Below, one piece after another: positions 27,590 to 31,517 of a stretch of DNA of 64,000 nt (its first letter is position 1; each line of letters opens with the position of its first letter). The notes under the pieces are model-generated. The model was given only the letters and a program-made list of their open reading frames with translations. It was not told the DNA's origin and made no database searches. The stretch covers positions 1-64,000 of the forward strand of contig NZ_JBFCVL010000009.1 of assembly GCF_040712075.1 (NCBI RefSeq), read 5' to 3'. Source of the DNA: Fodinicurvata sp. EGI_FJ10296 (GTDB lineage: Bacteria > Pseudomonadota > Alphaproteobacteria > DSM-16000 > Inquilinaceae). Position numbers and translations under genes: made by a program.

Positions 27590-28195
27590 CTAGCGGGTCC
27601 GCGCCAGAAAATTGCCAAGCAGGGCGTGCCCGTGTTCGGTCAGAATGGCCTCGGGGTGGAATTGCACCCCCTCGAAGGGGAGCGTCCGGTGCCGTAGTCC
27701 CATGATCGTCGGCGCCGTGGTCCCGGCCTCGTCAGTTTCCTCCGGGGTCCAGGCAGTAACCTCCAGACAATCGGGCATGCTTTCCGGTGCCACGGTCAGA
27801 GAATGATAGCGCGTCGCCGTGAACGGATTCGGAAGGGTGGCGAACACGCCGGTGCCCGCGTGGTGAATGGGGGAGGTCTTGCCGTGCATCACGGTGGGCG
27901 CGCGAACGATCCGGCCGCCGAAATGTTGTGCGATCACCTGATGGCCAAGACACACGCCCAGGATCGGTATCGGGGCCGGTAAAGGTGCTGCGGTGGCGAT
28001 CAGGTCCAGCGACATGCCGCCATCGTCCGGGGTGCCGGGCCCCGGCGAGATGATGATGCCTTTGGGCCGGCGCGCAAGGACGGCCGAAACCGTCGCGGCA
28101 TCATTGCGGATTACCGCCAGTTCTGCGCCCAGGCTGCGCAGGTACTGAGCCAGGTTGAAGGTGAAGCTGTCATAATTATCGATCAGGACGATCAC
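27590..28195 (-). CDS. pabA: Aminodeoxychorismate/anthranilate synthase glutamine amidotransferase subunit
   Basis: This 201-residue class I glutamine amidotransferase has the triad C82 (GVCLGHQ), H180 and E182 (FHPEAI) and the PGPGTP oxyanion strand. It provides ammonia to the PabB subunit. It overlaps the upstream pabB by 4 bp (ATGA), so the two are made together. Because the partner is PabB rather than TrpE, its main role is 4-aminobenzoate (folate) synthesis, although such subunits can serve both pathways. Confidence 0.92.
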
Positions 28196-29439
28196 GGCAA
28201 TGGCTCACTCTTCGAGTCCCGCACCCCGGTTTCGGACAGAGCAAACAGATACCGGCCCTTGAGCAGGCACTCGTCAAACTCAGCCGCCGGATCGCTGTCG
28301 TGAACGATGCCGCTGCCGAGACCGAGATAGCCGATGCGGGGCGTATCGGCCATTTCCCGCCCCTGCGGCGCGGTGATCGTGATCGTGCGTATCGGCACGT
28401 TGAACGCCATGTCGCCATCCGGGCCAATATGGCCGATCGCGCCGGTATAAAACCCGCGCGGGCTGGTTTCCAGTTCCCGGATGATCTCCATGGTGCGGAC
28501 CTTGGGCGCGCCGGTGACCGATCCGCAGGGAAACAGCGCTGCGAGAATATCGGTGAAGCCGATGGTGCGCGGCACCTTGGCGCTCACGCTCGACGTCATC
28601 TGGTTCACCGACCGATAGGCTTCGATGTCGAACAGTGAGTCCACGCGCACCGAACCGGGTTCGGCGATGCGGCCGAGATCGTTGCGCATCAGGTCGACGA
28701 TCATGACGTTTTCCGCCCGGCTCTTGGGATCGGCCCTGAGGGTGTCGGCGATATCGCGGTCGGCCTCCGGTGTGTGCCCGCGCGGGGCCGTGCCCTTCAT
28801 CGGTTTGACCGATATCCGGTCACCGGATTTCTTGAAGAACAGTTCCGGCGATCTCGAAAGCACGTCCAGTCCCGGCAGCCGGACATAGGCGCCGTAAGCA
28901 ACCGGCTGCGTCGTTCGCAACCGACGGAACAGGGCGATCGGATCGCCCGGAACCGGGAACGACGCCCTGAAGGTATGGTTTACCTGATACGTATCTCCGG
29001 CAGCGATGTGGGCGCGCAGCTTTTCCACGGCCCGAATATAGTCATCGCGCGTGACGTCGAGGTCGATCCGGCCGATCGGGGCTGTTTCGGGATTGGTCGT
29101 GCCGCCCCGCTCCTCCAGGAAGGCGTCCACCTCACCCTCGTTCACGGGCCGGCGTTCGCGGAACAGCCCCATCGCGATCAGCGGCACGCCGGATGGTGGC
29201 GAGGCGCGCGCGATCAGCGCCGGGTCGATATGCGGCGCAAGTTCGTATGCCAGCGCCCCGGCGGCGAACAGCCCCTTTGCAACGCCGCCGTCGATCTCCT
29301 GCAGCGCCTTGTACACGGCATCCGGGGTCGCGTCGGCCGCATCGAGCCGAACCACGCGCTCCAGGCCGGTGAACAGTGCCGAGCACGGTACGTCGGAATG
29401 ATTGTCATCGAGCAGGACGAAAGGCGAATCGAGCGGCAT
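28192..29439 (-). CDS. pabB: Aminodeoxychorismate synthase component I
   Basis: This 415-residue chorismate-binding enzyme carries [10 protein letters not shown], where the lysine (PIKGT-type motif) separates aminodeoxychorismate synthases from anthranilate synthases (PIAGT). Other family blocks are [34 protein letters not shown], and [11 protein letters not shown]. It converts chorismate and PabA-derived ammonia to 4-amino-4-deoxychorismate in folate synthesis. A GTG at 29451 would add four residues. A pabC lyase is not in the window. Confidence 0.93.
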
Positions 29440-29483
29440 CGCGTTAGGCACCGATTGGAAGGCGGCTGCAGGAAAACGGACGT

Positions 29484-29497: not shown

Positions 29498-29659
29498 GTG
29501 CCGACGCTTGCGCCTCGGTTTCAAGTGTGTCAAGGACACTCGTTACGCGCCAGAATGCGATACTAAAATCAGTATAAAACACGTTATAGGTGCATCACGC
29601 CTTCCGACGCGATATACACGGGATAGCGTCACGGCTGAGCGGCCAGGAAGGAAACCGAC

Positions 29660-30532
29660 ATGCACGATATCTTCAACCCGATCGTCAAGGAATGCCTGCG
29701 CTCGAACAAGGGCGACTACACCTTGTATGTCTTCGGCGACGCCACGCATCTCAGATGGGCGGTGCTCGGCAAGATCGCGCAGCATTTCAGGATCGAAGTC
29801 GAAGAGATTCGCGATGGTGACCATCTGGCATCGCTGCCGAAAAGCGGGCGGCGGGCCTTCATAAAATGGTCGCCGAGGTCACGGTACATCGTGCCCGATG
29901 AATGGAAAGCGCTCTTGCCGCCCGGCACCCATATCATCAACGATACCGGCTTTGACTGCGACAAGACGAACGTCGAGAAATGTTTCGAGACCGTCGCCGG
30001 CTATCCGCTCGCCGTCGATCCCCTGACCTATGACGGCATCGCGGCATCGAAATCGATCCGCAACGCCGCCCATGACGGCAAGACCGTGCAATGCCCGGTG
30101 ACGTCGGTCGAGCCCGATCAGGTCTACGAGCGGCTGATCGACAACGTGTATTCCACCAGGGCGGGCGACGACTATGTCTGTGATATGCGCACCCCGGTAA
30201 TCTTCGGTGATGTACCGTTCGTCTATCTGAAATACCGGCCGATCAAGAGCCGCTTCCAGAACAAGAACGCCTATGCCCGCGCCGTCTCGAAATACGAGGT
30301 GTTCTCCTATGAAGAAGTGGAGATCATCAAGGCATTTTCGTGCGAGATCGAACTGGACTACGGTGAGATCGACGTGCTGCGCGACCGTCACGACGGGCGG
30401 ATCTTCATCATCGACGCCAACAACACGCCCTATGGCCCGCCCAACCACATCGACAGCGGCGACCGGTCCTGGGCGGTGCGCTTGCTGGGCCAGATGGTGA
30501 TCGAGCATTTCTTCGCGGCCCGGGACAATTGA
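29660..30532 (+). CDS. Uncharacterised ATP-grasp-like protein
   Basis: The 290-residue protein has no recognisable named family. Its C-terminal part ends with an ATP-grasp metal-binding signature, LDYGEIDVLRDRHDGRIFIIDANNTPYGPP at about 232-261, in which E236, D252 and N254/N255 would coordinate magnesium. Upstream, AASKSIRNAAHDGKTVQCP (about 128-146) can supply the nucleotide-binding lysines, and GTHIINDTGFDCDKTNVEK (89-107) resembles the segment that precedes the central ATP-grasp domain. It probably joins a carboxylate to an amine or thiol, substrate unknown. It is divergent from pabBA and 157 bp upstream of livG, with no obvious partner. To keep within what I see: the ATP-grasp assignment is motif-level. 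Confidence 0.65.
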   Translation: MHDIFNPIVKECLRSNKGDYTLYVFGDATHLRWAVLGKIAQHFRIEVEEIRDGDHLASLPKSGRRAFIKWSPRSRYIVPDEWKALLPPGTHIINDTGFDCDKTNVEKCFETVAGYPLAVDPLTYDGIAASKSIRNAAHDGKTVQCPVTSVEPDQVYERLIDNVYSTRAGDDYVCDMRTPVIFGDVPFVYLKYRPIKSRFQNKNAYARAVSKYEVFSYEEVEIIKAFSCEIELDYGEIDVLRDRHDGRIFIIDANNTPYGPPNHIDSGDRSWAVRLLGQMVIEHFFAARDN

Positions 30533-30689
30533 ACCGGGGGCGATTGAATCGCCGCTGAGCGGTCCGGGGAGTCATTTCGGTTGAGTGACGCCTGACGGCT
30601 TGGTATCTGTCCGCACCACTTCGTCGCGGGCCGTCGGCCGGGATAGCGACGAGGGATGACGACGAAAGCGTGTGGACTGCGGGGGCGCC

Positions 30690-31517
30690 ATGATCAGGGT
30701 GGAGAACGTCCGCAAGGCCTTTGGCGGCCTGCAGGCGGTAGACGATTGCAGTCTGGAGGTCCCGGCCGGCAGCATTACCGGGCTGATCGGGCCGAATGGC
30801 GCCGGGAAAAGCACGCTGTTCAACATCATCGCCGGGTTCCTGAAACCCGATAGCGGCCGCATCCTGCTTGACGGTCATGACATTACCGGCGTGCCGCCCC
30901 ATCAGCTGTTCCATCTCGGCCTTGTGCGCACCTTTCAGATCCCGAACGAATTCTCCCGGATGACGGTCCGCGAAAACCTGATGCTCGTGCCGTCGGGCCA
31001 ACTGGGCGAAAGCGTCGCGGCCACCTGGTTCCGGTGGGGGGCCGTGCGCGAGGAAGATCGCCGAGTGCGCGCGCAGGCGGACGATGTTCTGGAGTTCCTG
31101 CGCCTGACGCATGTCGCCGACGAACTGGCCGGCAATCTTTCCGGCGGCCAGAAGAAGCTGCTGGAACTGGGCCGCACCATGATGACCGAGGCGAAAGTCG
31201 TCCTGCTGGACGAGCCGGGCGCCGGAGTCAATCGGACCCTGCTGGCCCAGATCGCCGATGACATCGAACGGCTGAACCGTGAACGCGGCTATACCTTCTG
31301 CATCATCGAACACGACATGGATCTCATCTCGCGGCTGTGCGATCCGGTTATCGTCATGGCCGAGGGCCGGGTGATCGCGCGCGGTCGGATGGAGGATATC
31401 CGGCGCAACGAACAGGTCCGCGAAGCCTATCTCGGTGGCGGCGGCGCCCGAGCCGAGGCCGGAGATGCCGGGGCCGGAGATACCGGCGCGGCAGCGGTCG
31501 GGCCAGAGGGGGGATGA
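30690..31517 (+). CDS. livG: Branched-chain amino acid-type ABC transporter ATP-binding protein LivG
   Basis: This 275-residue ATPase has Walker A GPNGAGKST, signature LSGGQKKLLELGR, Walker B VVLLDEPGAGVN and the H-loop CIIEHDMDL. The Gly at DEPGAG is typical of LivG. The start ATG at 30690 gives a LivG-like N-terminus; 30672 would add six residues. The C-terminal tail is Ala/Gly-rich and contains a 15-bp near-duplicate (31458-31487). It begins the livG-F-H-M gene run. Substrates of such systems range from branched-chain amino acids to urea and amides. Confidence 0.93.
   Translation: MIRVENVRKAFGGLQAVDDCSLEVPAGSITGLIGPNGAGKSTLFNIIAGFLKPDSGRILLDGHDITGVPPHQLFHLGLVRTFQIPNEFSRMTVRENLMLVPSGQLGESVAATWFRWGAVREEDRRVRAQADDVLEFLRLTHVADELAGNLSGGQKKLLELGRTMMTEAKVVLLDEPGAGVNRTLLAQIADDIERLNRERGYTFCIIEHDMDLISRLCDPVIVMAEGRVIARGRMEDIRRNEQVREAYLGGGGARAEAGDAGAGDTGAAAVGPEGG
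31458..31487. repeat. 15-bp tandem duplication in the 3' end of livG
   Basis: GCCGGAGATGCCGGG (31458-31472) is followed directly by GCCGGAGATACCGGC (31473-31487), two mismatches. It encodes a repeated AGDxG pentapeptide in the tail, beyond the conserved ATPase core. Confidence 0.75.

Follow-up and report, generated by a model that had tools for sequence, protein, structure and literature searches.

A 290-residue alphaproteobacterial protein with a predicted ATP-grasp fold belongs to a family without a curated model and is tentatively linked to surface glycans

Here, we ask what is encoded by a gene of 290 codons in a window of 64,000 nucleotides (the whole stretch of DNA analysed), whose product, P0001, matches no named protein family and whose neighbours are a pabBA pair on one side and a gene for an ABC ATPase on the other. 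The open reading frame is intact, and its coordinates, its length, and its neighbours are as given in a preliminary description of the locus (Table 1). Our answer is graded. The ATP-grasp fold of P0001 is well supported by a structural model, and the residues of an ATP/Mg site can be predicted. As to function, we tentatively favour an ATP-dependent ligase that joins carboxylates to amines and acts on glycans, for which we infer both the substrate and the chemistry, and we hold this reading with less than even confidence; a carboxylate-amine ligase was also among the candidates of the preliminary description. While an ATP-grasp fold alone is no surprise, the analysis assigns an unannotated gene to an enzyme family that can now be defined, whose active site is open to testing and whose gene contexts hint at substrates.

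Searched alone, P0001 gave no match at E ≤ 10 in Pfam, NCBIfam, PADLOC, or PHROGs, in agreement with the earlier view that it belongs to no named family, and its best match by sequence among solved structures had an E value of 0.87. The AlphaFold2 model, built from a 58-row alignment, has a pLDDT of 91.3 and a pTM of 0.89, and Foldseek returned 205 PDB matches to this model at E ≤ 0.001. The 50 of these 205 matches that were listed, all of which are ATP-grasp enzymes by title or by their known identity, are led by PsnB, ITPK, and ArgX, with PsnB first (E 3.4e-9). A second structural comparison gave Z scores of 16.9 for ArgX-LysW, 16.0 for LysX, 15.8 for RimK, 15.4 for ITPK1, and 15.3 for PPIP5K2. 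Because these scores are nearly tied, the fold cannot tell a ligase from a kinase. In profile comparisons, RimK was matched at E 2.5e-5 with a 13-row profile and at 1.1e-4 with the 58-row profile, over a span that covers D175xR177 to D238, while Vip1/Asp1 kinases were matched at E 0.039-0.33 with the 13-row profile and Vip1 at 0.11 with the 58-row profile. As judged from the model, P0001 has the two features expected of a member of the superfamily, i.e., the fold itself and a pre-ATP-grasp domain. Thus, the confident model and the listed PDB matches bear out the ATP-grasp fold that had been suspected from the sequence. Among viral models, the best match was BFVD A0A5B8IEU7, an unnamed protein of Mimiviridae sp. 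ChoanoV1 (TM 0.71, 20% identity), which, based on the models, is a possible candidate member of the P0001 family; by comparison, TM by query reached up to 0.57 among the 50 PDB rows listed.

The P0001 gene looks isolated within its own genome. None of the six window neighbours tested is a glycan gene, and a promoter and terminator scan at the gene gave no signal exceeding those of shuffled sequences. Its codon-position GC content resembles that of eight neighbours (GC3 of 0.807 vs 0.727-0.833), and its overall GC content is slightly below theirs (0.586 vs 0.606-0.675). P0001-type genes are also rare near home: with the own genome counted, they are present in 3 of 41 relatives, in 11 of 385 genomes sampled across the class, and in 2 of 17 genomes of the taxonomic family. 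We rejected a conserved link to pabBA based on gene presence, as a pabB-like match, in some cases a weak one, is found in all 17 of the latter genomes. An exosortase-A-type decarboxylase in the genome of the window was likewise rejected, the TIGR03099 matches of 191.9 and 47.3 bits being below the cut-off of 478.

Table 1. Features of the P0001 gene, its product, and its neighbours (positions in the window)
Feature	Position	Strand	Basis or remark
Amidotransferase (GATase, PabA-like)	27590-28195	-	Upstream of the P0001 gene
Chorismate-binding PabB-like enzyme	28192-29451	-	Upstream of the P0001 gene
AGGAAGGA, probable ribosome-binding site, ATG 7 nt further on	29645-29652	+	Sequence reading
P0001, ATP-grasp-fold enzyme, 290 aa	29660-30532	+	Open reading frame, AlphaFold2 model, PDB fold matches, conserved active site
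Pre-ATP-grasp N-terminal part, residues 1-90, approximate boundary	29660-29929	+	Model secondary structure, alignments
K102, linker lysine ahead of the ATP-grasp module	29963-29965	+	58/58
K131-S132..N135..H138-D139-G140, strand-2 Lys and N..H(D)G loop	30050-30079	+	K131, N135, H138, G140 58/58
D175-x-R177, with the Arg reported for the assemblage of amide-forming ligases	30182-30190	+	58/58; excerpt of PMC4431377
D238, first metal-site acid	30371-30373	+	58/58
D252-x-N254, metal-site motif closing the last strand	30413-30421	+	58/58
ABC ATPase with branched-chain amino-acid C-terminal domain	30672-31517	+	Downstream of the P0001 gene

At the level of the protein family, the description of P0001 as an orphan fails. 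Using a 13-row alignment to scan genome contigs, we found that 341 of 374 candidate stretches encode P0001 relatives, and the best 80 of these 341 were analysed. Further relatives are present on plasmid records of Deinococcus ficus and Palleronia. Viral contigs yielded five family loci with the larger alignment as the query and none with P0001 alone, and tblastn of phage records gave nothing useful. The best BLAST partners of P0001 are members from Mycobacterium, Oscillatoria, and Microvirga with 40-46% identity; in the alignments, residues 1-90 of P0001 diverge from the relatives. The 58-row alignment comprises P0001, 51 of the 79 remaining genome-contig loci, and six loci from a genome search; among the loci absent from it are L012 and L013, as well as L002, L004, L005, and L010, which are duplicates or near-duplicates. 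A Pfam scan of the 58 members at E ≤ 0.1 listed 11 families. A fusion to SmpB, suggested by a single Pfam row, was rejected because the open frame crosses a masked stretch. A search of the open-licence literature gave no description of the family, which is a weak negative since the family is nameless. Altogether, the P0001 family has no curated model in the four profile libraries, though its fold and superfamily are known.

In the 58-row alignment, K102, K131, N135, H138, G140, N162, D175, R177, R198, E219, D238, R241, D252, and N254 are constant in all 58 members. The ATP-grasp template consists of a linker Lys, a strand-2 Lys, a strand Asp, and an acid-x-N motif (as set out in a section of PMC4431377). 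All of these are present in P0001 as K102, K131, D238, and D252/N254, and together with the fold they support the prediction that these five residues form the ATP/Mg site. The preliminary description had taken a conserved lysine near residues 131-141 as potential support, and K131 is such a lysine; it had also proposed a metal site made of E236, D252, and N254 or N255, lack of conservation of E236, D252, and N254 or lack of the fold being taken as evidence against it. The fold, D252, and N254 hold up. By contrast, position 255 is K in 43 of the 58 aligned members, and E236 is not conserved family-wide; the position is E in 20 of 58 members, G in 35 of 58, and E in none of 37 rows of the MBL-linked clade described below, and we rejected it as a family-wide metal ligand. 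Because E236 is variable while D238 is constant, D238 takes the role of the first metal-site acid across the family. By itself, the E..DxN motif is weak evidence for an ATP-grasp site: an E-x13..17-D-x-N pattern of some kind occurs in 23.6% of 20,000 shuffles of P0001, and the exact E-x15-D-x-N-N pattern, which was picked post hoc, occurs in 0.24% of them. It is the constancy of D252, N254, D238, K102, K131, and R177 in 58 of 58 members that settles the motif question. Outside the 58 rows, the Deinococcus member L012 has Ser at N254; in the Palleronia member L013, H138 is replaced by F and R198 by G; in the viral member L128, N135 is replaced by Q and D139 by N; and in the viral member L130, D175 is replaced by E and R198 by Q. 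All four keep K102, K131, R177, D238, and D252.

P0001 departs from the template in two respects, i.e., it has D instead of E in the last motif, and N135..H138 and G140 are found where the Gly-rich ssxGbGl loop, which is usual but not obligatory in ATP-grasp enzymes, would follow the strand-2 Lys. The genome of P0001 itself has five RimK-type open reading frames, of which four are readable at both sites; three of these (L119, L121, and L122) have ExN and one (L123) has DxN, and a Gly-rich loop is present in each of the four. L123 lies on the same contig at about 77.5 kb, ~47 kb from the P0001 gene and outside the window.

The active site bears on the most persistent of the alternatives, i.e., that P0001 is an ATP-grasp kinase that phosphorylates a sugar, a polyol, or a phosphate group, in the way that inositol phosphates are phosphorylated by ITPK and PPIP5K. 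ITPK1 and PPIP5K2 score at most 1.6 Z below the best structural match, the Vip1/Asp1 profiles are matched at the E values given above, Ins134_P3_kin is weakly matched by 8 of the 58 members (best 0.019), and DxN is present in Vip1. In addition, the constant H138, which follows K131, may be equivalent to the ITPK His that contacts the nucleotide (according to a section of PMC7614388). However, the RimK profile match is the stronger one (E 2.5e-5 vs 0.039), the RimK model PF08443 is matched by 13 of the 58 members at E ≤ 0.1 (best 1.4e-4) vs 8 of 58 for the kinase model, and DxN is no diagnosis of a kinase, as it is also present in L123 and in CDC123, a predicted ligase (based on part of PMC4431377); the motif was therefore discarded as an argument that would prove a kinase. 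An Arg at the position of R177 is tied to the clade that holds most amide-forming ATP-grasp ligases (in the same part of PMC4431377). In the printed profile alignment, the yeast Vip1 kinase has Lys at this position. The constancy of R177 therefore speaks more for a ligase that forms amides than for a kinase, and its presence still falls short of proving the reaction. Altogether, we consider a kinase unlikely.

It is quite unlikely, in our view, that P0001 is a ligase of the PsnB, RimK, or LysX/ArgX type that modifies a peptide or protein, with a peptide or a carrier as the substrate. PsnB as the first Foldseek match and ArgX with its carrier protein LysW as the top match of the second structural comparison argue for such an enzyme; against it, we recognised no gene for a precursor peptide or a carrier protein among neighbouring open reading frames of at least 80-90 aa, which is a weak negative.

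Gene contexts divide the family into two parts. In an 87-row tree, there is one supported clade, which has 64 rows, support of 100/96, and almost exclusively alphaproteobacterial members. The remaining rows come from Bacteroidota, Actinomycetota, Cyanobacteriota, Ignavibacteriota, Deinococcus, and some Alphaproteobacteria, including Microvirga, Palleronia, and P0001; they do not form a supported clade, and the long branch of P0001 arises at a fork that lacks support. One locus (L058) is broken by the start rule and was excluded from the tree and from the neighbour counts. Of 61 loci in the supported clade, 59 have a gene for an MBL-fold hydrolase at a distance of at most 2.5 kb and 35 have a TIGR01244 gene nearby; of the 18 other loci, none has either. 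Ten loci enter the MBL count by an open reading frame that lies over the gene on the opposite strand, and tblastn confirmed the MBL gene in 10 of 10. The arrangement of an ATP-grasp gene near an MBL-fold hydrolase gene, often together with a TIGR01244 gene, is exemplified by L096:5744-8175. Two residues follow the same division: with P0001, L008, and L009 excluded from the counts, E occupies position 236 in 17 of 18 outside rows and in 0 of 37 rows of the MBL-linked clade, and P occupies position 257 in 18 of 18 and 0 of 37, respectively. Both E236 and P257 are present in P0001 and in three aligned viral members. Based on the tree and on these residues, P0001 lies outside the MBL-linked clade. 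E236 and P257 are possibly ancestral, however, and the grouping of P0001 with the members in glycan loci is therefore unproven. Because the rows outside the clade lack support as a clade and the shared residues may be ancestral, the function of P0001 may differ from that of these members.

Least likely among the readings weighed here is that P0001 is a ligase that acts on small molecules in central or sulfur metabolism, with no connection to glycans, and that the glycan loci reflect chance or later recruitment: the MBL-fold and TIGR01244 associations (GloB-like and Blh-type proteins act on thiol compounds) and four Flavobacteriales loci amid housekeeping genes speak for it, but P0001 is placed outside the MBL-linked clade and many of the remaining loci are polysaccharide loci.

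Indeed, many loci outside the MBL-linked clade are surface-polysaccharide loci. A glycosyltransferase or flippase gene is the first neighbour on one side in L015, L019, L022, L024, L054, L081, and the Deinococcus locus L012, and a glycosyltransferase gene is two genes off in L016. Genes for a polysaccharide pyruvyl transferase and an O-antigen ligase flank the ATP-grasp gene in L008 (observed as L098). In mycobacterial loci, one protein tested in L018 exceeds the cut-off for the acyl-CoA ligase TIGR03098 and one in L020 that for the decarboxylase TIGR03099, both of which are exosortase-A-associated by name. Among 78 neighbour proteins from 15 loci, Pfam identified Glycos_transf_2 in 8, Glycos_transf_1 in 7, and Polysacc_synt in 4; these proteins were hand-picked for size from 132 and cover 15 of the 18 loci, with three mycobacterial loci excluded. 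The neighbour proteins tested at individual loci were chosen by reading, which biases the choice towards glycan genes. Of the 18 loci in this part of the family, 7 have no adjacent glycan gene that we recognised, and all 7 come from Bacteroidota. A HhH-GPD/DUF6702/DHH cluster is common to four of these seven, and in L033, L077, L086, and L089 from Bacteroidota the ATP-grasp gene follows genes for DUF6702 and HhH-GPD (endonuclease III-like) proteins in a conserved order. A protein with an SSGYDS motif recurs near family genes in four loci (e.g., L016:10827-12329 and L018:11829-13439). From this motif, we take these proteins to be Asn-synthase-like; those of L016 and L018 have no NCBIfam match, and the one of L018 has no Pfam match.

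Because several of its nearest relatives adjoin surface-sugar genes and two viral ones a sulfotransferase gene, P0001 may attach a small molecule to a sugar of the cell surface. If P0001 is a carboxylate-amine ligase acting on glycans, as we favour, Mg-ATP would be held in the cleft by K102, K131, D238, D252, and N254; P0001 would activate a carboxylate by phosphorylation, yielding an acyl phosphate; and an amine would attack this intermediate to give an amide. More tentatively still, we suggest that the acceptor is a glycan or its precursor, e.g., a uronic acid or an amino-acid-type sugar substituent; no residue of P0001 could be assigned to substrate binding. By analogy, P0001 would play a role like that of Campylobacter Cj1438, which decorates the capsule by means of an amide-forming domain and is not a family-level homologue. 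If true, P0001 relatives would carry out an uncharacterised decorating step in polysaccharide loci, including those of the mycobacterial exosortase-A type, and in some phages.

Among the five viral loci (L127-L131), the neighbourhoods of L127, L128, and L130 were read; the match figures of L129 resemble those of L128. In both L128 (4866-6202) and L130 (4228-5971), there is a 4-nt overlap between the ATP-grasp gene and a Sulfotransfer_4 gene. In L130, an unannotated upstream gene likewise overlaps the ATP-grasp gene by 4 nt; the upstream gene that was read as one for a glycosyltransferase has no Pfam match. A Stealth_CR2 match in L128 is under the cut-off. L130 contains a terminase match, the putative terminase of L128 has none, and L127 contains a phage lysozyme gene and, 2.3 kb downstream, a gene for an FkbM methyltransferase. 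Phage sulfotransferases have been reported, and their function is called unclear (in a passage of PMC10580990). Possibly, the ATP-grasp and sulfotransferase genes of L128 and L130 form a compact phage decoration module. The broadest reading of our data, which we regard as somewhat doubtful, is that a new ATP-grasp family decorates surface glycans in five lineages (Actinomycetota, Cyanobacteriota, Bacteroidota, Deinococcota, and Alphaproteobacteria) and that phages captured it as a pair with a sulfotransferase; this pair would then alter the glycans of the host or the virion.

Compared with known systems, P0001 shares the fold, the D-x-R strand, and the D..acid-x-N metal site with RimK, LysX, and ArgX (PF08443; Z 15.8-16.9); unlike RimK, it has no match to PF08443 or TIGR00768 at E ≤ 10, and it differs from the RimK-type proteins of its own genome by the N..H(D)G loop and, except for L123, by DxN instead of ExN. 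With ITPK and PPIP5K it shares the fold, and with Vip1 the DxN motif. It differs from ITPK and PPIP5K in having no Pfam match to Ins134_P3_kin at E ≤ 10 and in the marginal profile similarity of its family, and from Vip1 in R177, which is constant in the P0001 family and K in Vip1. Pfam includes a TupA model; unlike the TupA-like ATP-grasp protein Cj1438, P0001 has no Pfam match at E ≤ 10, and TupA is not among the 11 families listed for the 58 members at E ≤ 0.1. Cj1438 is an enzyme of a surface-polysaccharide locus, and its C-terminal domain amidates capsule glucuronic acid with serinol-P or ethanolamine-P (according to a portion of PMC11800379), which suggests a likeness of role to P0001 and not shared membership. 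Finally, the R2K clade (CDC123 and DUF4343) resembles P0001 in that the Gly-rich loop motif is missing, and CDC123 resembles it in having DxN (as described in part of PMC4431377), but R2K proteins have no linker lysine while K102 is constant in the P0001 family. What sets this family apart are its distinctive N..H(D)G loop and its two separate gene contexts.
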